This document shows positions 1,830 through 52,655 of a DNA stretch of 64,000 nucleotides, piece after piece. Both the position numbers and the translations under genes were made by a program. The stretch is from Modestobacter sp. VKM Ac-2986 (GTDB lineage: Bacteria; Actinomycetota; Actinomycetes; Mycobacteriales; Geodermatophilaceae): contig NZ_JAPVBH010000007.1 in assembly GCF_026967795.1 (NCBI RefSeq), forward strand, positions 186,001 through 250,000. Direction: 5' to 3'. Within the stretch, counting starts at the first letter, position 1; every line of letters starts with the position of its first letter. The notes beneath the pieces were generated by a model. That model was given only the letters and a program-made list of their open reading frames with translations, was not told the origin of the DNA and ran no database searches.

Positions 1830-8831
<7,002 letters not shown>

Positions 8832-13802: not shown

Positions 13803-13807
13803 AAGGA

Positions 13808-20392: not shown

Positions 20393-21774
20393 CGGGTGCC
20401 CGGGCGGGCGCTGGGCACGGTGAACACGGTGACCGGCCCCGCGACGACCGCGGCCAGCCGGGCCCGCAGCGCGGCGTCCCGGCCGGTGCTGGCGTCGTCG
20501 ACGACCAGCAGGGCCGCGTCGAACGGGGTGCCGCCGGCGGGCGGTGCGACGTTGTAGGCGAACCGCGGCCCCGGCCCGTCGGCCGGGGCGTCGTGCGCGG
20601 GGAAGGTGAGCGCGGTGCGGATCGCGCAGCCGGGCTCGTCGACCGGGACCACCGGGGAGCGCGTGGTGCTGGAGAACAACACCTCCACGCCGTCGTCGGC
20701 CAGCAGCGTGGCGAGCTCGGCGGCCAGCCGGGTGGGCAGGTACATGAGCTCCTCGGTGCCGAGCACCAGCAGCCGCTCCCCCGCCGTCCGGGGCAGGCCG
20801 GGCCGGAGCTGCCGAGCCACGGCGGCCACCGCGGCGTCGAAGGCGGGGCGCTCGGCGTCGGTGAAGCCGTGCCGCCCGCCGTCGCGGACACCGTCGGGCC
20901 AGCCGGTCGCCGCCCGTCCCTCGACCGGGCGGGTCGCGGCGGTCACCGGTGGCCGGCCGTGCTGCGCCACCAGGGCGCCGCCGCGGGCCAGCGCGTCGGC
21001 GGGCAGCGCGACCTCCCCGGTGACCAGCGCGACCACCTCGACCTGCACGCCGGTGCGGTCGGCGAAGGCGGCCAGCGCGGCACGGTCGGCCGCCGTGCGG
21101 AGGTCGACGAGCGCGGCGACGAGGTACCGCTGCCGCGGGGCGACCGCCTGGAGGGCGCGGACCGTGTCCATGACCGTGGCGCCGGTGGACAGCTCGTCGT
21201 CGACCAGCACCAGCGGGCGGGGGCCGGCCAGCAGCGCGGCGTCCTCGGGCAGCAGCAGGTGGCTGGTGGCGTGGGAGTGCGACTCCTCGAACGCCCCCAC
21301 CGGGGTCACCCCGGGCACCGGCCGCCGGGTGGAGTGCAGGTACGGGGCGCGGAGCTGGTCGGCCACCGAGTGCCCCAGGCCGGTGGCGGTCTCGGCGTAG
21401 CCGAGCACCAGCGCGTCGTCTTCCGCGCCGGGCAGGTGCACGTCGAGGGCGGCCAGCAGCCGGGACGACGCCGTGCCGTCACCGCGCAGTGCCGCGGCGA
21501 CCAGCGCGCCGCCGTCCTCGGCGAGGCCGGTGGGCACGCCGGTGAGCCGGTCGGCGACGAGGGCGCCGAGCAGCCGGCCGGCGCCGTGGACGAGCCGCGG
21601 GTCGGTCGGCACGTGCTTGCCCAGCACCCGGCTGACCAGCAGGTGCGCCCGCCGCGGGTTGCGGCGCAGCGCCATGCCGACGAGGTCCTCGGCGACCAGG
21701 CCACCGACGCCGGCGGTGGTGCGGAGCCGGGCGCCGAGCCGGTCGGCGGTCCACTGCCCGCTCCAGACCGTCAC
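20389..21774 (-). CDS. Phosphoribosyltransferase with TRSP domain
   Basis: The 461-residue protein has an N-terminal type I PRTase domain with the PRPP motif VLVDDELSTGATVMD near residue 188. The region before it, HSVADQLRAPYLHSTRRPV and EESHSHATSHLL, is typical of the PRTase_2 family. From about residue 325 comes the TRSP domain (LLVLGTEELMYLPTRLAA, VEVLFSSTTRSPVVPVD), named for its conserved residues. It is predicted to build a ribosylated compound in the Ter stress pathway. GTG start at 21774 overlaps the lyase stop by 4 bases; the frame extends further upstream only as noise. Confidence 0.88.
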   Translation of the reverse strand: MTVWSGQWTADRLGARLRTTAGVGGLVAEDLVGMALRRNPRRAHLLVSRVLGKHVPTDPRLVHGAGRLLGALVADRLTGVPTGLAEDGGALVAAALRGDGTASSRLLAALDVHLPGAEDDALVLGYAETATGLGHSVADQLRAPYLHSTRRPVPGVTPVGAFEESHSHATSHLLLPEDAALLAGPRPLVLVDDELSTGATVMDTVRALQAVAPRQRYLVAALVDLRTAADRAALAAFADRTGVQVEVVALVTGEVALPADALARGGALVAQHGRPPVTAATRPVEGRAATGWPDGVRDGGRHGFTDAERPAFDAAVAAVARQLRPGLPRTAGERLLVLGTEELMYLPTRLAAELATLLADDGVEVLFSSTTRSPVVPVDEPGCAIRTALTFPAHDAPADGPGPRFAYNVAPPAGGTPFDAALLVVDDASTGRDAALRARLAAVVAGPVTVFTVPSARPGTR

Positions 21775-22925
21775 AGGGCGGCGCCCAGCAGGTCGACGAA
21801 GGAGGTCGTCGGGTGCGCGACGCCGAAGACCTGGGCCCGCCGCAGGGTCCGCTGTGCCCAGGCGGTGTGCGGCTTGGACTCGTTCATCTTGTTGCGGAAC
21901 GCCGAGGCGGCCACCCCGCCGGCGGCGCCGGTGCCCAGGACCGCGACGGCGTCGCTGTGCTCCTCGTGCGTGACCACCGACAGCGCGTGGACGGCGGCGA
22001 CGTGCGAGGGGTGGATGACGGTCTTGCCGCTGAGCCCGTTGGCCCGGTCCAGGACCACCTCGCGGATCAGGCCGTCGAGGTCGCGGCGGAGGATCTCGGT
22101 GCGCAGCGCGCGCTCCTGGTGCTCGTCGAACGGGGTCTGCCGGAGCTGGGGCTTGAACAGCCGCTCGGGGCTGGAGAAGTACTCCCACACCGCCCCGGTG
22201 ATCACGTGGCCGGTGCCGTCGGCCCGGCCGAGGACGTTGACGATGTCGGCGATGGTGTCGGCCAGCACCCGGACGTCGTAGACGGTGAGCTCGCGGCTGC
22301 GCCGCAGGCCGTAGGTCGCCGACAGGTCGGTGGCGCCGATGCGCACCGCGAGCACGTGCTCCCGGTGGGCGGCGAGCAGGTCGCGGATGCCCAGCAGCGC
22401 CGCCGCCCGGGTCTCCAGGTGGGCGACCTCCGGTGACTCCACCACCGGCATCACCCGCAGCAGCCGGCCGGTGCGCTCGCTGGCCGCGACCACCTCGGCC
22501 AGGAACGCCGGGCCGGTGGTCGCGGTGAACTTGGGCAGCACGAAGCCGGTGAGGACGCCGAGGTCACTGCCCAGCCCGGCCACGATCGCCGGCACCTGCT
22601 CCGGGGACCGCACCCGGATGAACAGCAGCGGCCCGTCGGGTGCGGTGGCGGCGAGCTCGTGCAGCTGGGCGACGACGTTCCGCTCGGCCACGGGGACGTC
22701 GGCGTCGGCGATCGCGTCCTCCAGGCACAGCACGGCGCTGAGCACACCGGCGGCCCGGTTGCGGGCGACGTCCTTGGCCAGCGCGGGCCGGGTGGCCGGG
22801 CTGTAGAGGGTGGCGCCGAGGGCCGTGCCCAGCACGGCCGCGTCGTCGTCGGCGGTGAAGGGCTGGGGCGGCAGGGCGAACAGCCGCGCCTCGTCCGCGC
22901 CGGTCAGGTTGTCGAAGTGGCGCAT
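21771..22925 (-). CDS. HpcH/HpaI aldolase or citrate lyase-type (CitE-like) enzyme
   Basis: The 384-residue TIM-barrel enzyme is of the CitE/HpcH family. Recognisable parts are ATLYSPATRPALAKDV, SAVLCLEDAIADADVP, LLFIRVRSPEQVP, VMPVVESPEVAHLE, RIGATDLSATYGLRR and KTVIHPSHVAAVHAL, with the acidic metal ligands and the loop typical of CoA-ester lyases. In ter operons this subfamily is paired with the two PRTases and HAD enzyme and probably makes or cleaves a C-C bond in the small-molecule product. First gene of the four-gene overlap operon; ATG start with GAGG 6-7 bases upstream. Confidence 0.88.
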   Translation of the reverse strand: MRHFDNLTGADEARLFALPPQPFTADDDAAVLGTALGATLYSPATRPALAKDVARNRAAGVLSAVLCLEDAIADADVPVAERNVVAQLHELAATAPDGPLLFIRVRSPEQVPAIVAGLGSDLGVLTGFVLPKFTATTGPAFLAEVVAASERTGRLLRVMPVVESPEVAHLETRAAALLGIRDLLAAHREHVLAVRIGATDLSATYGLRRSRELTVYDVRVLADTIADIVNVLGRADGTGHVITGAVWEYFSSPERLFKPQLRQTPFDEHQERALRTEILRRDLDGLIREVVLDRANGLSGKTVIHPSHVAAVHALSVVTHEEHSDAVAVLGTGAAGGVAASAFRNKMNESKPHTAWAQRTLRRAQVFGVAHPTTSFVDLLGAAL

Positions 22926-23023
22926 GAGGACCTCGGGAGGGAGACCACCGTTGCTGGGTGGCGGACGGGACGGGCCAGCGGACGTCGGTGCAGCGCGAGC
23001 TCAGCAGGCTGCCCCCGGCGGGG

Positions 23024-24196
23024 TCACAGCACCGGGGTGGCGCCGTCGGCCCAGGTGATCCGGTCGTAGCCGTAGGCGGCGGCCACCTCCCGGACGGCGC
23101 CGGTCACCAGCTCGCCCTCGGCGCGCAGCACGAACTCGCCGTCGATCGCGTACAGCGACAGCGCCGCGACCGGCCCGGCGTGCCGCCCGAGGTCCAGCGG
23201 CACCTCGACCCGCGCGCCGCCGAAGGTGGTGACCCGCAGCGTGCCGCCCCAGTCGAGCTCGCGGCCGGACTCGGAGAAGACGTACACCAGCAGCCGGCGC
23301 AGCACCCGTGTCTGGCGGAGGTCGACCGTCAGCTTCTCGTGGGCGCCGCGGGCCCCGGTGACGACCGGCCGGCGGGAGTGTGGCGGTGCGGTGCCGAGGC
23401 CGGTGGCCAGCTGGACGACGCCGGAGGTGCCGTCGGCGAGGGCGTACAGCGCCCCGACCCGGACGTCGCCGACCGCCGCGGACACGATCGCCTCGACCGT
23501 CAGCGTGCCGATGCCGGACTGCACCCGGCTCAGGGTCACCGTCGGGTCCCGGCGGGTGAGGATGACCCGGCCGCCCGGGGCCAGCCGGGGCACCGCGCGG
23601 CGGGCCGGCGGCGCGGCCGCGGCGGGCGTGCGCACCGGCGCCGGGGCTGCGGCCGGCGGGCTCACCGGCGTGGGGCCGAGGTCCAGCGGGTCGGACGCGC
23701 GCGGGCCGGCGACCGGCGCGGGAGCGGCAGCCGGGCCGGAGAGGTCCAGCGGGTCCCCGAGGTCGAGCGAGGACGACGGACGGCGAGCCGCGGCCGGCGG
23801 CGCTGCGGGGGTCGCGGCTGCCGCCGGCGGGGCTGCGGCCGGCGGGCCGGAGAGGTCCAGCGGCGAGGACAGGTCCAGCGACGGTGCCGGGGCGCGGCGG
23901 GCAGGGGCGGGCGTGGACAGGTCCAGCCCGGACGACGGCTCCGACAGGTCCAGCCCTGCCGCCGACGACCGCGCGGGCGGCGACGGCTCGGACACGTCCA
24001 GCCCGCTCGACCGGGACGGCGACGACGGCTCGGAGAGGTCCAGCCCACTCGACCGGGCGGGTGGCCGAGCGGGGGTGGCTGCAGGCCGCGGCGGCTCGGG
24101 TGCGGCGGCGGTCCCCGGGACCGGACGCAGGGTGCGGTGCCGCAGCCAGCCCAGGTCCGGCCGCGGCGGGGCGGACGCCGGCGGCTGGCCGATCAC
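23024..24196 (-). CDS. TerD-domain protein with long LDLS-repeat linker
   Basis: The protein has 390 residues. After a short N-terminal stretch, residues about 40-190 are a low-complexity Pro/Ala/Ser linker carrying about nine copies of an LDLS/LDLG motif (e.g. SSGLDLSEPSS, APSLDLSSP, SSSLDLGDP). The last roughly 190 residues are a divergent TerD fold (GGRVILTRRDPTVTLSR, VGALYALADGTSGVVQ, LTVDLRQTRVLRRLLVYVF, EFVLRAEGELV). The Ca2+-binding acidic cluster of classical TerD is missing. I chose GTG at 24196, 13 bases after the preceding terD stop, with GGGGG upstream. Probably a scaffold in the membrane-associated Ter complex. Confidence 0.82.
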   Translation of the reverse strand: MIGQPPASAPPRPDLGWLRHRTLRPVPGTAAAPEPPRPAATPARPPARSSGLDLSEPSSPSRSSGLDVSEPSPPARSSAAGLDLSEPSSGLDLSTPAPARRAPAPSLDLSSPLDLSGPPAAAPPAAAATPAAPPAAARRPSSSLDLGDPLDLSGPAAAPAPVAGPRASDPLDLGPTPVSPPAAAPAPVRTPAAAAPPARRAVPRLAPGGRVILTRRDPTVTLSRVQSGIGTLTVEAIVSAAVGDVRVGALYALADGTSGVVQLATGLGTAPPHSRRPVVTGARGAHEKLTVDLRQTRVLRRLLVYVFSESGRELDWGGTLRVTTFGGARVEVPLDLGRHAGPVAALSLYAIDGEFVLRAEGELVTGAVREVAAAYGYDRITWADGATPVL

Positions 24197-24209
24197 GGCC
24201 GGCCCCCGG

Positions 24210-24773
24210 TCACAGCGGCAGCCCGTAGTCGGCGGCGATCCCGGCGATCCCACTGGTGTAGCCCGCGCCCAGCACCCGGAACTTCCAGTCCCGCTGGTGC
24301 CGGTAGACCTCACCGAGCACCAGCGCGGTCTCCCCCGACAGCACGCCGGCCAGGTTCTCCGAGCGCACCAGCTCCCGGCTGCCTGCCGCCTCGCGCACCA
24401 CGACGGTGAGCTCGCGCAGCTGCCCGAGCGTGCGCCGCTGCGCCGTCCCGTCGTTGAGGTACAGCACCACGACCAGTCGGTTGACCTCGGCCGGGACGCC
24501 CGCCAGGTCGATCTCCACCTGCTCGTCGTCGCCGGCCAGGGCGGTCTCCAGCTGGGCGACCGACTCCTCCGGGGATGCGAGCTGGTTGAAGAACACGACG
24601 TGCTCCGGGGACAGCGCCTTGCTGTCGGCGTCGCAGAGCACGGTGGCCAGCACCAGGTTGTCCTGCAGCAGCCGCTCGGCCCCGGCGTTCCAGGAGACGC
24701 CGACGAGGATCCGGGTCAGCCCCGGGATCTCGCGGGTCAGCGCCACGTTGGCGCCGCGGCTCATCGCCGGCAT
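24210..24773 (-). CDS. Divergent TerD-family protein
   Basis: The 187-residue protein has a TerD fold: MSRGANVALTREIPGLTRIL at the start and LVLGEVYRHQRDWKFRVLGA, then GYTSGIAGIAADYG, at the end. The middle is degraded relative to canonical TerD: the FDLDASA strand is LVLATVLCDADS and the HTGDN...GDGDDE loop is reduced to LAGDDEQVEIDL. Calcium binding is therefore doubtful. Start is either 24773 (MPAMSRG) or 24764 (MSRG). It sits between the XpaC-like gene and the TerD/LDLS gene in the same direction, so is probably co-transcribed. Confidence 0.88.
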   Translation of the reverse strand: MPAMSRGANVALTREIPGLTRILVGVSWNAGAERLLQDNLVLATVLCDADSKALSPEHVVFFNQLASPEESVAQLETALAGDDEQVEIDLAGVPAEVNRLVVVLYLNDGTAQRRTLGQLRELTVVVREAAGSRELVRSENLAGVLSGETALVLGEVYRHQRDWKFRVLGAGYTSGIAGIAADYGLPL

Positions 24774-24797
24774 CAGGAGTCCTTCACAGGTCGGTGT

Positions 24798-25286
24798 TCA
24801 CAGGTCGAGGTCGGATCGGGAGAACTTGGTGCGCAGGAAGCTGCCCTGGGTCATCAGCGCGTCGACGTCGGAGTGCTGGGCGGCGTCGCGCACGGCCAGC
24901 GCGGAGCTCTCCAGTGCCTCTAGCTGCTCCAGCAGCGACTCCGCCGGGGTGCGGCCGCTGGCCCGCGGGGTGTCGACGAGGTCGGGGTCGACAGCCAGGT
25001 AGCTGCGCACCGTGGTGGGCAGGTAGTCCGTCGCCGTCGCCTTCACCGAGATCGCCGCGTAGACGTCCAGGGGCCGCACGTCGGCGCCGTCGACGACATC
25101 ACGGAGGGCGTCGGTGACCCGCCGCGCGGTGACCACCGCAGACAGCGGCAGCCGGCCGGCGGAGGAGTTGACCAGCCGGTCGACCGTGGTGAGCGCCGCC
25201 CGCAGCGCCGCTGGGCCGTCCTCGGGCTCGGGGTCGAGGGCGGCGACGACGCGGGCTGCGGCCTCAGGCCGCTTGAACCACGCCAC
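24798..25286 (-). CDS. XpaC-like partner of TelA
   Basis: The protein is about 162 residues and mostly helical. The segment KATATDYLPTTVRSYLAVDP and the tail TPAESLLEQLEALESSAL resemble the C-terminal part of XpaC-type proteins, which pair with TelA/YaaN in Bacilli. That resemblance is by eye and tentative. The protein ends KFSRSDLDL, echoing the LDLS motifs of two neighbours. GTG at 25286 has GGGAGGGG 5 bases upstream; GTG at 25292 is an alternative. It follows telA in the same direction after 37 bases. Confidence 0.7.
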   Translation of the reverse strand: MAWFKRPEAAARVVAALDPEPEDGPAALRAALTTVDRLVNSSAGRLPLSAVVTARRVTDALRDVVDGADVRPLDVYAAISVKATATDYLPTTVRSYLAVDPDLVDTPRASGRTPAESLLEQLEALESSALAVRDAAQHSDVDALMTQGSFLRTKFSRSDLDL

Positions 25287-25325
25287 CGCCACCCCTCCCC
25301 CCGGTCACCGCGCCCGACACCGTGC

Positions 25326-26558
25326 TCACCCGCCGGTGATCTCGTTCCGGCGGGTGCGCTCCAGGTAGGGCTGCGCCCGCTGGATCTGGCCCTCGAGCGC
25401 CTGCACGGTCGCCGCCATCGAGTCCACGGCCTGCGCGCGGAAGGTGTCCACGGCGTCCATGGTGGCGAAGACGTTGTCGAAGGCGGCCTGCAGCTTGGCC
25501 ACGTCGATGGTCGACGACGCCGCCTGCTGGTTGATCGCCCCGCCCTGGATGCGCAGCTGTTCCGACGTGGACTCGATCAGGTTCCCCGTCACGGTGTTCA
25601 GCGCGTTGATCTGGTCGAGCACCAGCTTCTGCCGGCTCAGCGCCTGGGACACGATGACCGCCGTGCGGAGTGCGGCGATCGTGGTGGTCTGCGCCCGGTC
25701 GACGCCGCGGATGAGCTCCAGGTTGTTGCGCCGGATGAGGTCCAGGGCCATGTACCCCTGCACCGCGACCGCCATCTGGGTCTGGATGTCCTGCCGGCGC
25801 TGGCGCACCGGGAACAGCGCGTCGGACCGCACCGTGTTCGCGTCCTCGGTGCGGCCGGCGACCTCGAGCTCGGCGACCCGCTGCTCGAGGGCGGCGTCGA
25901 GGGCGGCGGCGAGCTCGTTGTACTCCCGCAGCTTGCCCATCAGCGCCCACATGTTGGCCTTCTCGGTCTCGATGGCCGCGTTGTCCTTGCGCAGCTCGTC
26001 CTGACCGCTGTCCAGCGCCTTGATGATCGAGTCCAGGTGCGACTGCGCCGACTGGTACTTGGCGAAGTACCGGTCGACCTTGTCACCGCCCGGGATCCAC
26101 TTGAGCACCTTCTTGACCCCGGTCAGGTCGGCCCGGTTGGGGTCCAGGTCGGTGACCGTGGTGCGCAGGTCGACCAGGGTGTTGGAGACCCGGGTCTGGG
26201 CGTCGGCGCCCTTGACGGCGCCCTTGCCCATCGCCGCGGCGGGGCGCTCCAGCATGCGGTTGGACACCGCCGCCGAGGAGCGCATCTCCTTGTCGCCCAT
26301 GTTCGTGATGGACGCGACCTTCTCGGCGAACGCCGGCGACCTGGAGTCCAGCGACACCAGGTCGGCGACGAAGGCCTCGGCCCGGCTGCGCAGCGCGACC
26401 GCCTTTTCGTCCTCGATCGGGACGGCACCGGCGGCCGCCTCGGGGGCGACGACGACGACCGGGGCCGGCGGGGCGAGCACCAGCGCGCCCGCGGCCGGGG
26501 CGGCCGCCGGGGTGGTCGTCGGGGTGCCCGACGACGCGCTGAGGTCCAGTTCGGACAC
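25326..26558 (-). CDS. telA: TelA-family toxic anion resistance protein
   Basis: The 410-residue protein is of the TelA (PF05816) family: long coiled-coil helices such as RSRAEAFVADLVSLD, FAEKVASITNMGDKEMRSSA, LKWIPGGDKVDRYFAKYQSA and MALDLIRRNNLELIRGVDRA, then QTTTIAALRTAVIVSQAL. Family members are linked to tellurite and other toxic-anion or envelope stress and are thought to act at the membrane as part of Ter complexes. Residues 1-60 are a flexible Ala/Pro/Val stretch starting SELDLSASSG. GTG start with AGGAGG 6 bases upstream. Confidence 0.92.
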   Translation of the reverse strand: MSELDLSASSGTPTTTPAAAPAAGALVLAPPAPVVVVAPEAAAGAVPIEDEKAVALRSRAEAFVADLVSLDSRSPAFAEKVASITNMGDKEMRSSAAVSNRMLERPAAAMGKGAVKGADAQTRVSNTLVDLRTTVTDLDPNRADLTGVKKVLKWIPGGDKVDRYFAKYQSAQSHLDSIIKALDSGQDELRKDNAAIETEKANMWALMGKLREYNELAAALDAALEQRVAELEVAGRTEDANTVRSDALFPVRQRRQDIQTQMAVAVQGYMALDLIRRNNLELIRGVDRAQTTTIAALRTAVIVSQALSRQKLVLDQINALNTVTGNLIESTSEQLRIQGGAINQQAASSTIDVAKLQAAFDNVFATMDAVDTFRAQAVDSMAATVQALEGQIQRAQPYLERTRRNEITGG

Positions 26559-26612
26559 GGGGTTCCTCCTGCGGATCGGTCGGGGGCTACAACGGTGGGT
26601 CGGGTGGGCGGG

Positions 26613-27191
26613 TCAGAGCGCGCTGGACACGGCGGGCATGAGGTCCCGGAACGTGCGCCCGGACGCCGGCACACCGAGCGCGGTCATCGACCAACCGGCG
26701 CCGTCACGGGTCACCCGGGCCATGATCTGCGCGTTGTGCGAGCCGGAGCCGGTGAGCTCGAAGCGGGCGATCTCGGTCTCCGTGGTCTCGTCGATCAGCC
26801 GGCAGAAGGCGTTGGCGATGGAGGAGAAGTCCTGCCCGGTGAAGGAGTTCACCGTGAACACGACGTTGGTGACCGAGGCGGGCACGCGGGACAGGTCGAC
26901 CTGGATCGCCTCGTCGTCACCGTCGCCGGCGCCGGTGCGGTTGTCCCCGGTGTGCAGGACCGAGCCGTCGGAGCTGCGCAGCTGCCGGAACCAGACCTGG
27001 TCGACGAGGTTGCCGCCGGCGTCCAGCAGCAGGGCGGAGGCGTCGAGGTCGACGCTCTGGGCCTTCCCGCCGCCGAAGAAGCCCTTCTTCTTGACCGCGT
27101 CCCAGCCCAGGCCCATGCGGACGCGGGTCAGCGAGCCGCCGTCCCGCTTGGACAGGGAGACCTTCTGGCCCTTGCTCAGGTTGACGCTCAT
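26613..27191 (-). CDS. TerD-family protein with canonical Ca2+ motifs
   Basis: The 192-residue protein opens MSVNLSKGQKVSLSKRDGG and has LGWDAVKKKGFFGGGKAQ, the strand [10 protein letters not shown] and the loop HTGDNRTGAGDGDDEAIQV. These acidic residues are the TerD calcium sites. The C-terminus (DGAGWSMTALGVPASGRTF) is shorter and different from the TerD/TerE pair at 28-29 kb, which fits the TerZ/TerF-like branch. I preferred the ATG at 27191 because AGGAG is 8-9 bases upstream; a GTG three codons earlier sits directly on the ribosome site. Confidence 0.9.
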   Translation of the reverse strand: MSVNLSKGQKVSLSKRDGGSLTRVRMGLGWDAVKKKGFFGGGKAQSVDLDASALLLDAGGNLVDQVWFRQLRSSDGSVLHTGDNRTGAGDGDDEAIQVDLSRVPASVTNVVFTVNSFTGQDFSSIANAFCRLIDETTETEIARFELTGSGSHNAQIMARVTRDGAGWSMTALGVPASGRTFRDLMPAVSSAL

Positions 27192-27281
27192 CTGTGCCAC
27201 TCCTTCGTGGTGGTGTGCGGTGCAGGTCGGGGTCCGGCCGGTCAGACGTACGGAGGGGCGCCCGGGGTTCCCGGGGCCCGC

Positions 27282-27947
27282 TCACTTGCGGCCCACGCCC
27301 CAGCGGATGCCCCAGTCGTAGGCCGCGTCGAGCTGGGCCTGGGTGCCGTCGACGTAGCGGACCTCGCGGCGGACGGCGAGGTCACCGCCGCTGGGGGTGA
27401 GCAGGGCGATGGCGCAGGTGCGGGCGCCGTCGCGGGGCTCGTCGAGGTGCACCTCGATCGAGGGGCCGGACACCGGCGTGAGGGTGACCAGGCCGTCGGC
27501 CGCGGCCCAGTTGGCCGAGCCCTTGTAGATGTAGGCGAACACGAGCACCCGCCGGATGGCGGCGGACTGGGCCAGGTCGACGTGCAGGTTCTCCCCCGCC
27601 GCGTTGCCGCCGGACCGGTCGTCGCCGTCGAGCCAGATGGTCGGCGAGCCGGCCCCCGGCGCGGTGACCGAGAAGGCGTTGCCCAGCGCCTGGACGACGC
27701 CCTTGCGCCCGTCGGTGAGCTCGTACAGGCAGCCCAGGTCCAGGTCGACGTCCGGCTCGCGCTTGCGCAGGAACCCGCCGCCCGCCGGCCGCGACGTCCA
27801 GTTCAGGTTGACCCGCAGCACCCCGCCGCCACCGCCGGACTTGGTCAGCGACACGGTGGGTGAGGCCTTGGTCAGCGTCACCTTCCGCGGTGCCGCCGCC
27901 TCGGGTGCGGCCTGCTGCTGCGGTCGCTTGGTGTAGTCGATCGGCAC
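27282..27947 (-). CDS. TerD-family tellurium resistance protein, TerA-like
   Basis: The 221-residue protein begins PIDYTKRPQQQ, then KVTLTKASPTVSLTKSGGG. The core strands are VDLDLGCLYELTDGRKGVVQ and FSVTAPGAGSPTIWLDGDDR, then SGGNAAGENLHVDL, with an end IEVHLDEPRDGARTCAIALL and AYDWGIRWGVGRK. The YELTDG and GENL patterns are those of the TerA-like branch rather than TerD itself; part of the acidic loop is retained (DGDDRSGG). GTG start with GGAGGG 7-8 bases upstream. Confidence 0.88.
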   Translation of the reverse strand: MPIDYTKRPQQQAAPEAAAPRKVTLTKASPTVSLTKSGGGGGVLRVNLNWTSRPAGGGFLRKREPDVDLDLGCLYELTDGRKGVVQALGNAFSVTAPGAGSPTIWLDGDDRSGGNAAGENLHVDLAQSAAIRRVLVFAYIYKGSANWAAADGLVTLTPVSGPSIEVHLDEPRDGARTCAIALLTPSGGDLAVRREVRYVDGTQAQLDAAYDWGIRWGVGRK

Positions 27948-28059
27948 TCGGTGTCCCTCCGCCGTCCAGGCGCTGGTGCGCCGCTCCCCGCAGGCGCGGT
28001 GCGCGCGCGGCCCATCCAACCAACCACCGCGCCCCGCTGTGCGGGTGCGGCGCCGGGGC

Positions 28060-28638
28060 TCACCCGACGTTGACGCCGAACTCCGTGGCGATGCCGGCCA
28101 GACCGGACTGGTAGCCCTGCCCCACCGCCCGGAACTTCCACTCGGCACCGCGCCGGTACACCTCGCCGAAGATCATCGCCGTCTCGGTGGAGGCGTCCTC
28201 GGACAGGTCGTAGCGGGCGAGCTCGACCCCGTCGTCGGCGTTGACCACCCGGATGAAGGCGTTGCGCACCTGACCGAAGGACTGCCGCCGGGCGTCGGCC
28301 TCGTAGACGGACACCGCGAAGACGATCTTGTCGACCTCGGCAGGCACCTGGGCCAGCCCGACCCGGATCACCTCGTCGTCGCCGTCGCCGAGGCCGGTGG
28401 TGTTGTCCCCGGTGTGCTCGACCGAGCCGTCGGGCGAGACCAGGTTGTTGAAGAACACGAAGTGCTCGTCGGACAGCACCCGGCCCACGCTGGTGACCAG
28501 CAGCGCCGAGGCGTCCAGGTCGAACGCCGAGCCGGACGTCGTCCGGGCGTCCCAGCCCAAGCCCACCACGACAGCGGTGAGACCGGGGGCCTCCTTGGTC
28601 AGCGAGACGTTGCCGCCCTTGGCGAGGCTGACGCCCAT
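28060..28638 (-). CDS. terD: TerD/TerE calcium-binding stress protein
   Basis: The 192-residue textbook TerD starts [19 protein letters not shown]. It carries [40 protein letters not shown], the GDGDDE loop, [20 protein letters not shown] and [20 protein letters not shown], ending [14 protein letters not shown]. All acidic calcium ligands are present. It is about 65% identical by eye to the next gene upstream, so the two are tandem duplicates. A hairpin (28666-28691) between them may make its expression partly independent. Confidence 0.95.
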
Positions 28639-28665
28639 GACGGGGCTCCTAACAGGCCGGAGGGA

Positions 28666-28691
28666 GCCGGCGGCGGGTGCCCGCCGCCGGC
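28666..28691 (-). terminator. Hairpin between the two tandem terD genes
   Basis: GCCGGCGGCGG (28666-28676) pairs with 28681-28691 around GTGC, giving a perfect 11-bp stem just downstream of the 28733-29308 gene. It probably attenuates read-through into the rest of the locus. Confidence 0.6.
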
Positions 28692-28732
28692 CCGTGCTGC
28701 CGCCCACGCCCCACCGGGCGCGGCCGGGGAGG

Positions 28733-29308
28733 TCAGACGTTGATGCCGAAGTCGCGGGCGATCCCGCCGAGGCCGGCCGAGTAGCCCTGGCCCACGGCGC
28801 GGAACTTCCAGTCGCTGCCGTTGCGGTAGAGCTCGCCGAAGACCATCGCGGTCTCGGTGGAGGCGTCCTCGGAGAGGTCGTAGCGGGCGATCTCGCGGTT
28901 GTCGGCGGCGTTGATGACGCGGATGAAGGCGTTGCGCACCTGCCCGAAGCTCTGCCCGCGCTCGTCGGCCTCGTAGACCGAGACCGGGAAGACGACCCGG
29001 TCCAGGGTGGCCGGGGCGCCGGCGAGGTCGACCTTGATCTGCTCGTCGTCGCCGCCGCCCTCACCGGTGAGGTTGTCGCCGGTGTGCTCGATGGCGCCGT
29101 CGGGGCTGCGCAGGTTGTTGAAGAAGACGAAGTACTCGTCGGCCGGGGCCTTGCCGTCGGCGCCCAGGCCGATCGCGGAGGCGTCGAGGTCGAAGGGCTT
29201 GCCGTCGGTCGTCCGGGCGTCCCAGCCCAGGCCGACGATCACCGTCTTCAACCCGGGGGCCTCCTTGGTGAGTGAGACGTTCCCGCCCTTGCTGAGGCTG
29301 ACTGCCAC
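28733..29308 (-). CDS. terD: TerD/TerE calcium-binding stress protein
   Basis: The 191-residue canonical TerD has [59 protein letters not shown], then [16 protein letters not shown] and [20 protein letters not shown]. The acidic loop reads GGGDDE where its sister has GDGDDE, one acidic residue fewer. It is the promoter-proximal gene of the ter locus, with a GTG start and GAGGAG 6 bases upstream. A candidate TAGTAT -10 box lies 66 bases upstream, next to an inverted repeat. Confidence 0.95.
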
Positions 29309-29373
29309 CTGGATCTCCTCTGATCGGTTCGCGGGCCGCTCCGACACCTGCCGACCCGGCTGTCTCCGCCCCG

Positions 29374-29406
29374 ATACTAGGCAGCCCAGCTGTACGGGAG
29401 CTGGGC
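29374..29406 (-). promoter_or_regulatory. Candidate ter promoter with overlapping inverted repeat
   Basis: On the minus strand a TAGTAT hexamer (29374-29379) fits a -10 box about 66 bases ahead of the first terD start. The -35 position reads only AGCTCC, so it is weak alone. An inverted repeat GCCCAGCT-N7-AGCTGGGC (29384-29406) covers the spacer and -35 region, where an operator or activator site would sit. Confidence 0.4.
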
Positions 29407-29536
29407 GTTCACCCGCTCCGGGTGACACGCACAGCGCACGGGCAGACCACCCACAGCAGCGTGAACGACCGGTGACTGTACGTTTCCGGCACGCGATGAC
29501 CAGAAAAGTGTGTTCTCGACCCGTGTGGGCGCCGCG

Positions 29537-29562
29537 CCGCCGGGTTGCCGGCAACCCGGCGG
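29537..29562. repeat. Perfect 26-bp palindrome in the ter/NlpC intergenic region
   Basis: Bases 29537-29562 equal their own reverse complement (arm CCGCCGGGTTGCC). With no unpaired loop it looks more like a dimeric-protein site than a terminator. It is about 230 bases from the terD start and about 200 bases ahead of the riboswitch. Confidence 0.6.
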
Positions 29563-36285: not shown

Positions 36286-36458
36286 CCCCCGATCATCGTC
36301 CTGCCCGACGACAGCTTGATCGCGCGTCACCGACGGCCTCCCCGGCTCACCCCCCTGAGTGGTGGGTTCGTGACACAGAGTGCCTGGAACGGCGGCTGCG
36401 GACCACCCGTCCCACCGGTCACAGGAGCACCCCCGGGTCCGGGTCCGCGCGGCGGGGT

Positions 36459-36475
36459 GCGGGTAGACAGGCACC
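36459..36475 (+). promoter_or_regulatory. Leaderless promoter element of the helicase paralogue
   Basis: GCGGGTAGACAG (36459-36470) is identical to the element ahead of the 1830 helicase gene, with TAGACA at 36464-36469 and the same 6-base gap to the ATG at 36476. There is no ribosome-binding site. Confidence 0.6.
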
Positions 36476-39400
36476 ATGGGCGCGCACCCCGGCCCCCCGC
36501 CGGTCCCGCACGGGGCAGCCGGCCGCACGGCCGTCACGGTCTCCGCCGTGCCCGTCGTCGGGGAGGCGCTGGCCCGGCTCGGTGCCCCGGTGGTCACCCG
36601 GCTGACGCTCACCGGCGGGGACCGTCCGCTGCGCGACGTCCGCGTCACCGTCGCGGTCACCACCGACGACGGTCCGCTGGGCGCCCCGGTCGAGCTGCGC
36701 TGCGACCTGGAGCCGGGCCGCACGGTCGCGCTGACCGACGTCCCGCTGCTGCTGGACGCCGGGGTGCTCGCCGCGCGCACCGCCCCCGGGATCGGCAGCG
36801 TCGAGGTGGTCGCCGAGTGCGACGGCGAGCTGGTCGGCCGGGCGGGCAGCCCGGTGACCGTGCTGGCCGCCGGTTCCTGGCTGGCCGCCCCCCTCCCGCT
36901 GGCGCTGGAGACGCTGGCCGCGCACGTGCTGCCCGACGACCCGGCCGTCGCCGCGCTGGTCGGTGCGGCCACCGACACCCTGTACTGGCGCACCGGCGAC
37001 GCCTCGGTCGCCGGCGCGGCCAGCGCGGAGCGGGTCGACCAGACGGCGGCCGCGATCGTGGAGGCGATGCGCCGGCGCGGCATCCGGGCCGCCGCCCCCT
37101 CCCCCGACTGGACCACCCTCGCCCAGCCGGTGCGCACGCCGACGCAGGTGCTCGAGGACCGGATCGGCAGCAGCCTGGACACCGTCGTCGTGCTGGCCGC
37201 CGCCCTGGAGCACGCCGGCCTGCGGCCGCTGCTGTGGGTGTGCGCCGACCACGCCTTCCTCGGCTACCGGCGCACCGACCGCGACGCGGACACGACCGCC
37301 ACCACCGAGGTGACCGGGCTGGCCGACCAGGTGCACCGCGGCGAGGTGCAGCTGGTCGAGACCACGATGCTCACCAGCCGCTCGGCGTCGGCCACCTTCG
37401 GGGACCTGCACCGCATCCCGGCCACCACCTGGCTGACCGGGGACCGGCACGGGGTCCTCGGGGTCACCGACGTGCACCGCGCCCGCGCCGACGGCGTGCA
37501 CCCGCTGCCCACCCCCGGCCCGGACCGGCGGCCGACCACGCCATCGCCGCCGGCCGACCCGCTCGCCCTGCCCGACGGCGTCCGCGACGCACTGCTGGAG
37601 CTCGGCCCCGGGACCGTGTCCCTGGGCGTGCGGTCGCTGCGGCTGCCCGCGCTGGCCGACCTGCTGGCCGCCGGGACCGCGCTCACCCTGCTGCCCGCCG
37701 ACCAGCTCGGCGCCGCCCAGCGCGCCCGGGGCATCCGCGCCGGCAGCGACCTGCCGCCCTACCAGCTGGCCGAGCTGCTGGAGCGGCACGCCGGCGTCTA
37801 CACCGACCTGCCGCAGGTGGCCTACCTGCCGCGGCTGCGGGAGCTCACCGCCCGGGCCCGCGACGCCGTGGCGCGCACCGGCGCCGCCGAGCTGCACCTG
37901 GCCCTGGGGTCGGTGGCGTGGGAGCGGGAGGGCCGGGCGGTGCGGTCCCCGCTGCTGCTGGTGCCCGTCGTCCTCACGCCGGTGCCCGGCAGCGACGCGC
38001 ACCGGGTGTCCGCAGCACCCGGGAGCGCGCCGGCCTGGAACGACTGCCTGCTCGCCGAGCTGCACGACCGGTTCGGCGTCGACGTGCCCGCCGACGGCGC
38101 GGTGCCCGACCTGGCCGCCGACCTCGGCGCGCTGCGCTCGGCCCTGGCGTCGGCGGGTCTCCCGCACCGGGTCGAGCCGACCGCCGACCTGGCCCTGGTG
38201 CCCGCCGCGGCGCTGCGCACCCGGGAGGACGCCGTCCGGGCGGTGGCCGGGCCGGGCCGCCCGCCGCTGGTCTCCACGTTGCTGCACCCGGCGCCGGGGT
38301 GGGCGCGCGACACCGAGCCGCCGACCGCCGGGACACCCGACCTCGAGGCGCTGGCGGACTCCCTCCCGCTGCCGGCCGACGGCTCGCAGCTGCGGACTGT
38401 CGCCGCGGCGCTGGCCGGGGAGACGACCGTGCTGTCCGCCGCCCCGGGCACCGGTGCGGTCCAGACGGTCGCCGCGCTGGCCGCGGCCGCCGTCGCCGGG
38501 AGCCGGCGGGTGCTGGTCGTCGCCGCACGCCCGGCTGCGCTGGCCGCCCTCGCCGACCGGCTCGGGACCGCCGGCCTGGCCGGGCGGGTGCAGGACCTCT
38601 CCGGCGCGGCTCCCCTCGGCCCGTCCCGGCCGGCCGCCGCCAGCGCCGCCGACCTGGGTGCCGCCCGCCGCGCCCTGGCCGCGCACGCCGCCCGGCTGCA
38701 CACGCCGAACTCCGCCGGGCTGTCGCTGTACCGCGCGCACGGCGCCCTGCTGCACGGCGCGCCGGACGCCCCGGTGCTGCCGGTGCCGGAGACGTTCGTG
38801 GCCACCGCGTCGGTGCGGACCACCGCCGCCGTCCGCCGGGTGCTGGCCGGCCTGCCCGCGGTGGCCGACCCGACCCGGCCGCGCCCGGGGCACCCGTGGG
38901 GCTTCCTCGACGACCCGGAGCTGGACCCGGTGGTGCTGGCCGACGCGGTCGTCGCCGTCGACGCAGCACTCGCGCTGCTGCCCCCGGCCGGACCGCTGGC
39001 CCGGGTCGTCGCCGCCGCGGTGCAGCCCGAGGACCTCGACGCGGTGGTCACCGTGCTCTCCGGCGTCCCGGTGCCGCTGGTCGAGCTGGACCGCACGGGG
39101 CTCCCGGACTGGGCGGAGACGGTCGAGCAGCTGGTCGCCGAGGTCGCCGCGTTCGTCGCGCTCCCCCATCCCGGCCTGGACGTCGCCCTGCCCGAGGCGC
39201 TGGACCAGCCGCTGGTGGAGCTCGCCGAGTCCGCTCGCGCCGCGGCGTCGTCCGGCCGGATGGGGCGGGCCAAGCGGCTGGCGGCGGTCCGCGAGCTGAT
39301 CGCCCCCGTGCTGGTGCCGGACGCGGTCGTCGACCCGGCGGAACTGCCCGAGCTCACGGCGTCGCTGCTGGAGGTGCAGACGGCGATGCGCGAGCTGGCC

Positions 39401-41830
39401 ACCTACGCCGGGGACGTCGCCGGACTGCGCGTGCCGTGGTCGTGGAACCCGCTGCTGGACCCCGGGCTGGTGGACCGGCAGGTGGCCCGGCTGCGGGAGC
39501 TGCGGGCGGCGATGGACCGGTCGCGGCCCTTCACCCCGGCGCTGCGCCGCTACCTGGACACCGACCCGCCGCACGACCCGGCGTCGGCCGCGGCGGTGGC
39601 GGCGCTGCGCGACGCGCTGGCCGGGCTGCTCGCCGTGGTGCGCCCCACGCCGGAGCGGTGGGCGCAGTGGTGCGGCACCGGGTTCGTGCCGCGCTGGGAG
39701 ACCACCCGGGACGAGCGCGCGATGGAGGAGTTCGGGCTGCCGTCGCTGGGGCGCTGGCGCGACCTGCTGCAGCAGCTGCGGCTGCTGGACGCCGCCGGGC
39801 TCGGTGAGCTGCGCGCCGCCCTGCTCACCGGCCAGATCGCCGCGGCCGACGCGGCGGCGGCCTTCGACCGGGGGCTGGCGGTGACCTCGCTGGCCGAGCG
39901 CTCCGCGGCGGCCGGCCCGGACGCCGGCGCCGACCTCGACGCCGCGGTGCGCGACCACCTCGCCGCTGCCTCCGCCCGGCGCGCCGCCGTCGTCCCCGGG
40001 GACGGCCAGGTGGTGCTGGCTTCGCCGGACGCCGTCGCCCGGCTGCTCCCGCCCGGTGCGGACGGCTTCGACCTGGTCGTCGTCGACGGCGGGCTCCCGG
40101 TCGTGGCCGGCCTGGGTGCGCTCAGCCGCGCCCGGACGGCGGTGGTGGTCGGCGACCCGCTGGCCGCATCGCCCGGCGACCTGACCACCGCGTGCCTGGC
40201 GGCGGGTGTGCCCCGCCGCGACCTGACCGTGCAGCACGCGAGCCGGGACGAGTCGCTGGTCGCCTTCGCGAACCGCACGTACCTGTCCGGGCTGCTGGCC
40301 ACGCTCCCCTCCCCCACCGGCCCGGCCGTGTCGCTGCGCCGGGTGCCCGGTGCGGTGCTGCGCGCGGCCGGCGAGCTGCAGGGCACCAACCCGGCCGAGG
40401 CGCACGCCGTGGTCGCCGAGGTGCGCCGGCAGTCGGGCCGGTCGGTCACCGTGGTGACCCTCACCGAGCCGCAGCGCGCGCTGGTCGAGCAGCTGCTGCG
40501 CGACCACGTCGAGCCCGGGCAGGTCACCGTCGCCCCGGTCACCGACGTCCCGGCGGCCGAGGTCGTGCTGTTCTCCCTCGGCTGCGCCCCCGACGCGGAC
40601 GGGCACCTGCCCGCGGAGTTCGGCCCGCTGAGCCGGCCCGGCGGCGAGCGGGTGCTGGCCGGGGCGGTGGCCCGCGCGAGCCGCGAGGTCGTCGTCTTCG
40701 CCTCCTTCGACCCGGTCCAGCTGCGGGACGACGCGACGGCGCTGACCGGCGTGCGGCACCTGCGCGCCTGGCTGGACGTGCTGACCGGGGCCGCGGCGCT
40801 GCCCCGGGGGCTGGCCGCACCGGACCCGCACCGCGAGGACGTCGCCGCCGGCCTGCGGGCGCGCGGGCTGGTGGTGCGCACCGACGTGGGGCTGTCGTCG
40901 TCCCGGCTGGACCTGATCGTGGCCGCGGCGGATGCCCCGGAGCGCCCGGTGCTGGCCGTGCTGCTGGACGGCCCCGCGTGGGCGGCGCAGCCGACGGTCG
41001 CCGACGGGCTGCCCGACGAGGCGCTGCGCGAGCGGCTGGGGTGGCCGGCGGTGGCGCGGGTGTGGCTGCCGGCGTGGCTGGCCGACCGCGAGGCCGTGCT
41101 CGACCGGCTGGTCGCGGCGGTCGAGGCGGTGCCCCCGGCCGTCCCCGCACCGGTCGAGGAGACCCCCCGGCCGGAGGCCCCGCACGTGCCCGTCCCGCCG
41201 CCCGCCCGCGTCCCGGCCCAGGCTCCGGCCCCGGCCGAGCCGGTGCGGACGACGGCGCGCCCGTCGGTGGGCCCGGCCGTGCTGCCCGGCGAGCGGCCGT
41301 TCGTGCCGTGGACGCCGTCGTCGTCGGGGGACCCGCGGGCGTTCCGCGAGCTGGCCGACCCGGAGGTGGCCGCGCAGGTGCGGCGGGTGCTGGTGGCGGG
41401 GATCGCGGCCGAGGGCCCGGTGCACCGCGACCGGCTGGTGCAGCTGACCGCCGCCGCGTTCGGGGTGGCCCGGGTCAACGCGGCCCGGACGGCGGAGGTG
41501 CTGGCGCTGCTGCCCGATCCCGAGGCGGAGTTCCGCTGGCCCGAGGGCGTGGACCCGGCGACGTGGACGGGCTTCCGCCGGCAGGCCGGTTTCGACGAGC
41601 GCCCGCTGGAGCACGTGGCGCCCGAGGAGCTGGGCAACGCGATGGTGGCGCTGTGCCGGGCGAGTGCGGGGATGACCCGCGACGAGCTGTTCGCCCGCAC
41701 GCTGGCGGTGTTCGGCCACCCGCGCCGGCACCCGGTGCTGGTGCCGCACCTGGAGCGCGCCCTGGCCACGGCCGTGCGCGCCAGCCGGGTGACCCGCGAG
41801 CCCGCGGGCCCGCTCATCATCGCCGCCTGA
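36476..41830 (+). CDS. Pseudo-helicase: DUF4011/DUF3320 paralogue with all ATPase motifs lost
   Basis: The 1784-residue protein is collinear with the 1830-8831 protein (N-terminal transglutaminase-like domain, DUF4011, helicase core, REase-like domain, short linker, DUF3320). Key residues have changed: Walker A APGTGAVQT has Ala661 for Lys; Walker B VVVDGGLP has Gly1205 for Glu; HYRSQDE became QHASRDES; ENVQGDERD became VTDVPAAE; VTRAR became VARAS; and LLDLSARNRLVNN became LLELGPGTVSLGV. The surrounding fold is well kept and the frame is fully open, so this is not a decaying gene. I infer a non-hydrolysing structural or regulatory subunit, perhaps partnering the active paralogue. A DUF5925 AAA gene follows 84 bases later. 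Confidence 0.92.
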   Translation: MGAHPGPPPVPHGAAGRTAVTVSAVPVVGEALARLGAPVVTRLTLTGGDRPLRDVRVTVAVTTDDGPLGAPVELRCDLEPGRTVALTDVPLLLDAGVLAARTAPGIGSVEVVAECDGELVGRAGSPVTVLAAGSWLAAPLPLALETLAAHVLPDDPAVAALVGAATDTLYWRTGDASVAGAASAERVDQTAAAIVEAMRRRGIRAAAPSPDWTTLAQPVRTPTQVLEDRIGSSLDTVVVLAAALEHAGLRPLLWVCADHAFLGYRRTDRDADTTATTEVTGLADQVHRGEVQLVETTMLTSRSASATFGDLHRIPATTWLTGDRHGVLGVTDVHRARADGVHPLPTPGPDRRPTTPSPPADPLALPDGVRDALLELGPGTVSLGVRSLRLPALADLLAAGTALTLLPADQLGAAQRARGIRAGSDLPPYQLAELLERHAGVYTDLPQVAYLPRLRELTARARDAVARTGAAELHLALGSVAWEREGRAVRSPLLLVPVVLTPVPGSDAHRVSAAPGSAPAWNDCLLAELHDRFGVDVPADGAVPDLAADLGALRSALASAGLPHRVEPTADLALVPAAALRTREDAVRAVAGPGRPPLVSTLLHPAPGWARDTEPPTAGTPDLEALADSLPLPADGSQLRTVAAALAGETTVLSAAPGTGAVQTVAALAAAAVAGSRRVLVVAARPAALAALADRLGTAGLAGRVQDLSGAAPLGPSRPAAASAADLGAARRALAAHAARLHTPNSAGLSLYRAHGALLHGAPDAPVLPVPETFVATASVRTTAAVRRVLAGLPAVADPTRPRPGHPWGFLDDPELDPVVLADAVVAVDAALALLPPAGPLARVVAAAVQPEDLDAVVTVLSGVPVPLVELDRTGLPDWAETVEQLVAEVAAFVALPHPGLDVALPEALDQPLVELAESARAAASSGRMGRAKRLAAVRELIAPVLVPDAVVDPAELPELTASLLEVQTAMRELATYAGDVAGLRVPWSWNPLLDPGLVDRQVARLRELRAAMDRSRPFTPALRRYLDTDPPHDPASAAAVAALRDALAGLLAVVRPTPERWAQWCGTGFVPRWETTRDERAMEEFGLPSLGRWRDLLQQLRLLDAAGLGELRAALLTGQIAAADAAAAFDRGLAVTSLAERSAAAGPDAGADLDAAVRDHLAAASARRAAVVPGDGQVVLASPDAVARLLPPGADGFDLVVVDGGLPVVAGLGALSRARTAVVVGDPLAASPGDLTTACLAAGVPRRDLTVQHASRDESLVAFANRTYLSGLLATLPSPTGPAVSLRRVPGAVLRAAGELQGTNPAEAHAVVAEVRRQSGRSVTVVTLTEPQRALVEQLLRDHVEPGQVTVAPVTDVPAAEVVLFSLGCAPDADGHLPAEFGPLSRPGGERVLAGAVARASREVVVFASFDPVQLRDDATALTGVRHLRAWLDVLTGAAALPRGLAAPDPHREDVAAGLRARGLVVRTDVGLSSSRLDLIVAAADAPERPVLAVLLDGPAWAAQPTVADGLPDEALRERLGWPAVARVWLPAWLADREAVLDRLVAAVEAVPPAVPAPVEETPRPEAPHVPVPPPARVPAQAPAPAEPVRTTARPSVGPAVLPGERPFVPWTPSSSGDPRAFRELADPEVAAQVRRVLVAGIAAEGPVHRDRLVQLTAAAFGVARVNAARTAEVLALLPDPEAEFRWPEGVDPATWTGFRRQAGFDERPLEHVAPEELGNAMVALCRASAGMTRDELFARTLAVFGHPRRHPVLVPHLERALATAVRASRVTREPAGPLIIAA

Positions 41831-41914
41831 CGCTGCGTATCTCGCTGGTTCCTGTCGGTGGCCCGACGTACGGTCCACCGGCCTCGTCCACCCGACCTGC
41901 TCAGGAGACCTCCC

Positions 41915-42988
41915 GTGACGCTGCCCGTCGTGCCCCGGCTGTCCCTGGACTTCGTGGAGGACGTCGCGACCGCGCTGATGGTGCAGGTGCAGTGGAGCGG
42001 GGCGCTGCCGCACTACCGCTCGGAGTCGGTGCCCGGTGGGGTCGAGGACCTGGCGGCGCTGGTGCCCGAGGGCGCGGAGCTGCGGGTCGACCAGCGGTTC
42101 GACCACCACGCGACGCTGTGCGTGGAGCTGCCCGGCGTGCTTCTGGAGCTGGAGCGGCGGCGGGCGGTCACCCGGGTGCGGGCGGCCGGTGCGACGGCCG
42201 CCGGGGTGGAGGCCGTCGTCGCCGGGGTGGTCGCCGCGGCGCGGGCGGCGGTGGCGGTGCCCGAGGGCACGGTGCGGATGCGGTTCTGGTCGGCGTCCAA
42301 GGACGGCGACGGCTCGATGTCCTCCCGCGAGGTGAGCGCACCGGGCTGGTCGGAGGTGGCCGGCAACTACGCCGCGCGCACCGCGGCGCCGCTGGGCGCG
42401 CTGATGGCCATGCCGGACGTCGAGAGCCGGGCCGGGCGGCTGGTGCTGTGGCACGGCGAGCCCGGGACGGGGAAGACGACGGCGGCGCGGGCGCTGAGCC
42501 GGGAGTGGTCGGCCTGGTGCCAGACGCACTACGTGACCGACCCGGAGCGGCTGTTCGAGGACCCGGGCTACCTGCTGGAGGTCGCCGGCGTCGACGGCGA
42601 CCGTGGGGACGACGACGACAAGCAGTGGCGGCTGGTGGTGGCTGAGGACTGCGACGAGTACCTGCGCACCGACGCGAAGCTGCGCGCCGGTGCGTCACTG
42701 GGCCGGCTGCTCAACCTGTGCGACGGCATCCTCGGCCACGGCCTGCGGGTGGTCGTGCTGCTGACCACCAACGAGGACGTCGGCAGCCTGCACCCGGCGA
42801 TCACCCGCCCGGGCCGCTGCCTGAGCAAGGTGGAGTTCGCCCGGCTCACCCACCCGGAGGCGCAGGCGTGGCTGGGTGCCGCGGCGACCGCCCCGACCGG
42901 TGCCTCGACGCTGGCGGAGCTGTACGCGCTGCGCGAGGAGCGCGCCGACCTCACCGACCGCGCCCCCGACATCGGCGGCTACCTCTGA
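41915..42988 (+). CDS. AAA-family ATPase with DUF5925 domain
   Basis: The 357-residue protein has an N-terminal DUF5925-like domain (LSLDFVEDVATALMVQVQWS, VRMRFWSASKDGDGSMSSRE). An AAA module follows with intact Walker A HGEPGTGKTTAARAL, Walker B LVVAEDCDEYL, sensor 1 LLTTNEDVGSL and an arginine-finger-type region HPAITRPGRCLSKVEF. It is a typical CbbX/spore-V-K-like AAA fold, used to remodel a partner protein. GTG start with AGGAG 7 bases upstream. It lies 84 bases behind the pseudo-helicase on the same strand, so probably one transcript. Substrate unknown. Confidence 0.9.
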   Translation: MTLPVVPRLSLDFVEDVATALMVQVQWSGALPHYRSESVPGGVEDLAALVPEGAELRVDQRFDHHATLCVELPGVLLELERRRAVTRVRAAGATAAGVEAVVAGVVAAARAAVAVPEGTVRMRFWSASKDGDGSMSSREVSAPGWSEVAGNYAARTAAPLGALMAMPDVESRAGRLVLWHGEPGTGKTTAARALSREWSAWCQTHYVTDPERLFEDPGYLLEVAGVDGDRGDDDDKQWRLVVAEDCDEYLRTDAKLRAGASLGRLLNLCDGILGHGLRVVVLLTTNEDVGSLHPAITRPGRCLSKVEFARLTHPEAQAWLGAAATAPTGASTLAELYALREERADLTDRAPDIGGYL

Positions 42989-43010
42989 CTGAGGCAGTCA
43001 AGACAACGAT

Positions 43011-43038: not shown

Positions 43039-43079
43039 GTCGGACGGGGTCAGCTCAGCGCACGCCCATGCTCCGGCGT

Positions 43080-50825: not shown

Positions 50826-52655
<1,830 letters not shown>

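Follow-up and report, generated by a model that had tools for sequence, protein, structure and literature searches.

What keeps a gene of more than 5 kb open when the giant helicase that it encodes has lost the catalytic residues of its motor? The question is raised by a protein of 1784 residues (P0001; Table 1) from Modestobacter sp. VKM Ac-2986, encoded within the window, by which we mean the whole stretch of 64,000 nucleotides that was analysed. Translation from its ATG start gave a single frame without internal stops over 5.3 kb, as the preliminary description had reported, and both its GC3 of 0.98 and its GC content by codon position resemble those of other genes. The DUF4011/MTES_1575/DUF3320 architecture is present in P0001, with all three domains above their Pfam gathering scores. 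AAA_11, AAA_12 and other AAA models pass the Pfam cut-offs not in P0001 but in P0002, a paralogue encoded in the same window.

Table 1. Positions of the features discussed (window coordinates, unless a locus is named).
Feature	Position	Strand	Evidence
P0002, 2333 aa, motor motifs intact	1830..8831	+	alignment, Pfam, NCBIfam
Ter-type stress cluster: StiP+PELOTA, PRTase_2+TRSP, C-C bond lyase, TelA, four TerD	19256..29554	-	Pfam
P0001 pseudohelicase, 1784 aa, degenerate ProA/Hhe member (DUF4011-SF1 helicase-Vsr-DUF3320)	36476..41830	+	ORF, Pfam, PADLOC, NCBIfam, alignments
N-terminal region, aa 1-345, aligns with transglutaminase-like region of relatives	36476..37510	+	alignment
DUF4011 domain, aa 370-527, RN of LLDLxxRNR lost	37583..38056	+	Pfam 53.7 bits, cut-off 22.2
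Dead Walker A AAPGTGAVQT, aa 655-664, Lys to Ala661	38438..38467	+	alignment; identical loss in M. muralis
Dead motif II LVVVDGGL, aa 1200-1207, catalytic Glu lost	40073..40096	+	alignment
VQHAS, aa 1252-1256, replacing WHYRS	40229..40243	+	alignment
APVTDVPAAE, aa 1353-1362, replacing KNLENVQGDERD	40532..40561	+	alignment (APVTDVPA--AE)
AGAVARAS, aa 1395-1402, replacing NVAVTRAR; first Arg retained	40658..40681	+	alignment
MTES_1575 Vsr-type nuclease-like domain, aa 1454-1548	40835..41119	+	Pfam 42.5 bits, cut-off 38.2
DUF3320 winged-helix domain, aa 1625-1669	41348..41482	+	Pfam 25.5 bits, cut-off 25
AAA+ ATPase with DUF5925 domain, P-loop GEPGTGKT	41915..42988	+	Pfam; GTG start, AGGAG upstream
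mscL-linked degenerate helicase, Cryobacterium	L002 9650-13378
mscL-linked degenerate helicase, Cryobacterium	L003 9650-13378
mscL-linked degenerate helicase, Actinomyces oris, annotated 'DNA helicase'	L010 2740-7053

P0001 was aligned with seven intact proteins, namely P0002 and six relatives from named plasmid records (L004-L009), and it lacks catalytic residues in each helicase motif examined. Relative to P0002, the Walker A lysine K702 has become A661, the Walker B glutamate E1317 is lost (D1204-G1205 in P0001), VQGDERD is gone, and TRAR reads ARAS, so that motif VI keeps Arg1400 and has Ser1402 in place of its second arginine; motif V is lost as well. P0001 does not have the set of Walker A lysine, Walker B Asp-Glu pair and motifs III-VI that marks a working SF1B helicase. 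The replacements named in the preliminary description (Ala661, Gly1205, HYRS, ENVQGDERD and the second arginine of motif VI) are all correct in the alignment. Its broader statement that every motif had been lost holds for the catalytic residues, but PGTG, the Walker B Asp1204, the Gly-Asp of motif III, Gln638 and Arg1400 persist as remnants. Likewise, the LLDLSARNR signature of DUF4011 has indeed given way to LLELGPG, but the domain that was said to be erased is still found by Pfam.

The distribution of the losses is uneven. Among the 248 columns that are invariant in the seven reference proteins (gaps being scored as losses, and some of the seven being closely related), 64 of the 121 that lie in helicase-motif regions are retained by P0001, as compared to 97 of the 127 elsewhere (Fisher p = 1.1e-4). 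By region, the columns kept amount to 30/39 in the N-terminal region, 26/40 in DUF4011, 19/32 across motifs Q, I and Ia, 11/13 in the middle insert, 13/30 across motifs II-III, 32/59 across motifs IV-VI, 23/27 in the nuclease-like domain and 7/8 in the remainder; the value for DUF4011 is thus also lower than those of the other accessory regions. Non-invariant columns are kept at identities of 0.42-0.55 in the motif regions and 0.41-0.64 in the others. General divergence fails as an explanation because these variable columns are about equally kept in the same regions, and the column counts indicate that the losses in P0001 are targeted at the motor.

An orthologue in Modestobacter muralis (P0003, 1788 residues), the one close match among the species genomes scanned, occupies the same place in a locus (L001) that is collinear with window positions 24332-55084 in pieces of 86-94% identity, a few stretches of the window being unmatched. 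The two proteins are separated by four gap columns, all of whole residues, and neither species has a frameshift over the 5.3 kb. Identical residues are found at 22 of 25 inspected positions (the kept Asp1204 is among the 22), and the Walker and motif II-VI losses are common to both proteins; the three positions that differ are T641, Q1253 and V1393 of P0001, which are A, H and W in M. muralis, the first two being residues of the intact type. For this one orthologue pair dN/dS is 0.268 (95% CI 0.211-0.333), with values of 0.264 (0.165-0.412) in the helicase regions alone and 0.270 in the remainder of P0001; four neighbouring genes, a set that leaves out the mis-framed pair for the gene at 31738-34467, gave 0.10-0.36. 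These ratios indicate that P0001 is under purifying selection, dead motor included, and it is accordingly an open frame without catalytic residues that is held under constraint, as judged from one orthologue in a close species. A recent pseudogene is ruled out by the dN/dS of 0.268 together with the whole-residue gaps. We are confident that P0001 is a maintained, functional pseudohelicase. The maintained non-enzymatic role that had been proposed at the outset gains support from the shared losses and the dN/dS value (n = 1 orthologue), and the two contrary outcomes named with it, an orthologue with intact Walker residues and a dN/dS near 1, were looked for in that orthologue and not seen. A scan of genome contigs with P0001 returned 79 pattern matches, three of which are relatives; absence elsewhere means little because a contig scan of this kind detects close relatives only. 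In viral contigs the scan returned six pattern matches, none of which was confirmed as a relative.

P0001 and P0002 are 50% identical in a global alignment (by BLASTP, 45% over 1299 columns plus a second segment of 49% over 232), their domain order matches over the whole length, and the C-terminal region is well kept. Their difference in length is largely accounted for by a repeat-rich linker in P0002 (window 7023-8229), where tandem repeats of 12, 18 and 36 bases encode a Pro/Glu/Val-rich sequence; the linker of P0001 is much shorter. In P0002, Pfam finds DUF4011 and MTES_1575, with DUF3320 slightly under the cut-off (23.5 vs 25). The accessory domains have changed in both paralogues. At the N-terminus, all six plasmid relatives have a cysteine (in ATCLDT in four of them, GTCFDL in L008 and GTCLDL in L009), which we take to be the catalytic cysteine of a transglutaminase; it is replaced by serine in P0001 (GSSLDT) and by glycine in P0002 (GTGLDT). 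In the nuclease-like domain, the VECDG...YH of all six reads VLLDG...WA in P0001 and P0002 (VLLDGPAWA/VLLDGPSWA). The name 'active' copy that P0002 had been given therefore fits its motor motifs, which are intact, but not its accessory domains, where the presumed transglutaminase cysteine and the nuclease Glu and His of the relatives are absent. Because P0002 also lacks the relatives' cysteine and VECDG...YH, the duplication probably took place after the accessory enzymes had been lost and before one copy lost its motor.

Family models separate the two paralogues. With the NCBIfam ProA model NF058533 (cut-off 1500), P0002 passes narrowly at 1527.5 and the relatives in L004, L007 and L008 also pass, whereas P0001, without its motor residues, reaches 798.4 over three stretches and P0003 reaches 810.3. 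ProA probably belongs to the 'Prometheus' system of defence-system lists, judging from the name. With the Hhe model NF042953 (cut-off 2000), both P0001 (120.4) and P0002 (488.7) fall far below the cut-off, and Pfam lists a HEPN domain in neither. Hhe was reportedly described by Gao et al. 2020. The order of DUF4011, SF1 helicase, Vsr-type nuclease and wHTH is the same in Hhe (PADLOC PDLC02194) and in the MTES_1575 giants; according to work on the latter (PMC3710099), a transglutaminase occurs in such an architecture, and the wHTH domains of such giant proteins have been proposed to recognise invading DNA.

The gene that follows P0001 offers the physically nearest candidate for its partner. An AAA+ ATPase gene begins 84 bases past the P0001 stop (82 bases in M. 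muralis), no terminator-like site was found between 36000 and 43600 in a weak scan, and the two genes are probable operon partners. Positions 9921-16551 of the M. muralis locus match window 36396-42991, which holds P0001 and the AAA+ gene, and nothing at that place of the locus corresponds to the adjoining stretches 34551-36395 (a GGDEF-EAL gene) and 42992-45780 (including a DUF222 gene); the pair is conserved as a two-gene block where its neighbours are not. GGDEF-EAL proteins flank the pair in the window (34531-36204 and 45796-47556), and the M. muralis copy of the second of these genes has ~75% DNA identity to the first. The AAA+ gene has a dN/dS of 0.204 against M. muralis, and its product resembles PDB chains of CDC48/VCP/AFG2 as well as PADLOC TRIP13 (E 2e-5). 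A DUF5925 relative in Nonomuraea has no homologue of P0001 or P0002 within 8 kb (tblastn E 1e-3), and DUF5925 is named in no paper of the open-licence literature searched.

We propose that an anti-phage giant SF1 helicase of the ProA/Hhe type was duplicated and that one copy, P0001, has been maintained without its motor. P0001 would fold in the shape of a helicase but would be unable to translocate, since it lacks ATP turnover; its nuclease-like and winged-helix domains may hold or recognise DNA or RNA, and the downstream AAA+ ATPase would remodel its conformation or assembly, supplying the ATP-driven step that the helicase core has lost. Such a remodelling cycle is our preferred mechanism because the ATPase resembles remodellers of the CDC48/VCP and TRIP13 types. 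Taken whole, this reading of P0001 as a duplicate-derived ProA/Hhe-type pseudohelicase, a nucleic-acid-binding scaffold remodelled by an AAA+ ATPase, stands evenly balanced. The scaffold role by itself is slightly favoured; against it counts the loss of motif V, through which SF1 helicases contact DNA. That the DUF5925 protein is the working partner of P0001 is plausible but short of probable, and is weakened by its basis, adjacency in two related genomes, by the lone DUF5925 relative in Nonomuraea, and by the lack of an AAA+ gene among the inspected neighbours of the mscL-linked dead lineage described below. As for the fold, which would comprise two RecA-like domains, framework columns are kept in the P0001 alignment. 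Two structure models, built from five aligned sequences each, have mean pLDDT values of 48 and 53 and are too weak to prove it; with the low-confidence AlphaFold model of residues 618-1553, four of the five Foldseek matches at E <= 0.001 are IGHMBP2/Dna2 chains with TM-scores of ~0.1, which would be consistent with an SF1B-derived fold.

The main rival is a complex with P0002, because there is a precedent in RecC and AddB, which belong to another SF1 branch, SF1A. P0001 would then be a dead subunit that scans or recognises DNA while P0002 acts as the motor. In PMC4824097 and PMC1185551, AddB and RecC are described as subunits of live helicase-nuclease complexes whose SF1 helicase domains are inactivated; a role in Chi recognition is proposed for these domains, and the nuclease domain of RecC is inactivated too; the RecB/RecC and AddA/AddB pairs also overturn the earlier remark that no described system combines a live and a dead copy. 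Like RecC and AddB, P0001 has kept an SF1 helicase domain after its inactivation (and RecC a nuclease domain too), but their complex partner is known and that of P0001 is a candidate only. The presence of P0001 and P0002 in one genome and window, with matching domain order and a preserved C-terminal region, speaks for such a complex. However, the two genes lie ~28 kb apart in separate operons, and none of the six plasmid loci has a second annotated DUF4011/DUF3320 gene in the ~3 kb to either side of the live one; what the annotation does show there, in L004, L006 and L009, is a DNA repair exonuclease together with AAA-type ATPases. We consider a complex of this kind rather unlikely. These three loci are from rhizobial and Paraburkholderia plasmids, and in L006 the exonuclease and ATPase genes lie directly downstream on the same strand.

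Proteins retained after their helicase motifs were lost or became dispensable include Deinococcus radiodurans PriA, which keeps DNA binding, and yeast Utp25; they belong to other helicase families, and the accessible text of PMC4504706 and PMC9539457 mentions no live paralogue beside either. Pseudohelicases and live/dead helicase pairs are therefore already known, and what appears new is a dead member of the ProA/Hhe family, of which no description was found in the open-licence literature.

P0001 is not the only such member. The contig scan that was run with P0001 also yielded two Cryobacterium proteins of 1242 residues with similar surrounding gene order (L002 and L003), in which PGTGK has become PGTGG, FVAEK VVSAR, DEASQ VDAGA, HYRS SYRA, VQGDERD AVAQSRD and NVAVTRAR AIGMTRAR. 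Searching plasmids with one of the two brought up a protein of Actinomyces oris (L010) that is degraded further (PGSDVAG, TSRNS). The Cryobacterium and A. oris proteins are 32% identical, both being open frames, and in all three loci a small ORF lies between the dead helicase gene and a downstream mscL; the small proteins of L002 and L010 have a common C-terminal pattern, NxARLRxDxPPHW. These proteins are of the same family as P0001 and have lost the corresponding motifs, but they lack the transglutaminase-like N-terminal region and a DUF3320 match and have other neighbours: they sit among genes with housekeeping-type domains, and the AAA+ gene is absent from the neighbours inspected (nine in L002 and six in L010).

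In a tree of 13 proteins (986 variable columns), the three mscL-linked proteins group together (100/100) and P0001 and P0003 group with P0002 (100/100). A single clade of the five dead proteins is rejected by the AU test (p 2.1e-6), with the cautions that the dead group was named after the first tree had been viewed, that the long branches of L012 and L010 meet, and that composition differs in six rows. With a single dead clade rejected, the present sampling implies at least two losses of the motor. L011 (Microbacterium, annotated in several pieces) and L013 (checked by tblastn only) were left out of all counts. Among 172 columns invariant in eight intact proteins, P0001 keeps 106, L002 87 and L010 67. 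The lost columns overlap: 57 are lost in P0001 and 87 in L002 among 179, with 44 lost in both (odds ratio 6.2, p = 1.7e-7), and eight of these 44 carry the same new residue. This overlap fits convergence, but may partly reflect columns that tolerate change, and our argument does not depend on it. A stable dead state is possible, as the second, separate lineage shows.

It is improbable that P0001 serves as a decoy or regulator that tunes or restrains the ProA-like protein or the Ter system by binding its trigger or substrate. An anti-phage role is suggested by the family's names (NCBIfam ProA/Hhe; PADLOC Hhe, candidate PDC-S37), and the Ter cluster is located between P0002 and P0001, its functional membership being a candidate only. 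Against this, PADLOC at E 1e-5 matched none of 17 further ORFs of the window (some of them unlikely genes), and the neighbours of the mscL-linked lineage carry housekeeping-type domains. The TelA and TerD part of the cluster (24332-29602) is collinear with the M. muralis locus. Elsewhere in the window are a gene for an RtcB RNA ligase (12639-13802) and a protein that combines a GmrSD C-terminal restriction-endonuclease domain with an Excalibur calcium-binding domain (50826-52655).

That P0001 is a slowly decaying relic whose stop codon is still to come is very doubtful and already largely refuted. The stem branch to P0001/P0003 is ~2.6 times as long as that to P0002 (0.95 vs 0.36, tree of variable columns), which points to an early, faster phase before the present constraint, but the upper confidence limit on dN/dS of 0.333, the absence of frameshifts in both species and a GC3 like that of other genes all argue against ongoing decay. 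Equally remote is an ATP-independent enzyme that has lost the motor alone and still cuts with its nuclease-like domain, a region that keeps most of its invariant columns (with 0.64 identity in the others) and the aspartates of RLD and LLDG, but in which the Glu and Tyr-His of all six plasmid relatives are replaced in both P0001 and P0002.

Returning to the pseudohelicase reading, the disarmed copies in several actinobacteria are probably nucleic-acid-binding scaffolds and not enzymes. We advance only tentatively the wider idea that ProA/Hhe giant helicases in Actinomycetota repeatedly became ATP-free architectural proteins, once in the mscL-linked lineage, which would be old and span at least two orders, and once in the AAA+-paired lineage of Modestobacter. 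At least two disarming events, overlapping in the columns that they affect, are seen on present sampling in this very large helicase of the defence type, and one of the resulting copies is under selection. The publicly applied label 'DNA helicase' on the dead A. oris protein is a warning to annotators. Pseudokinases are well known, whereas the term 'pseudohelicase' is rare in the open-licence literature; with P0001 one can ask by experiment how a helicase fold functions when ATP is no longer used, and whether anti-phage systems are regulated or extended by dead copies. If the wider idea is true, pseudohelicases would form a class of nucleic-acid scaffold that is general in bacteria and has gone unrecognised.
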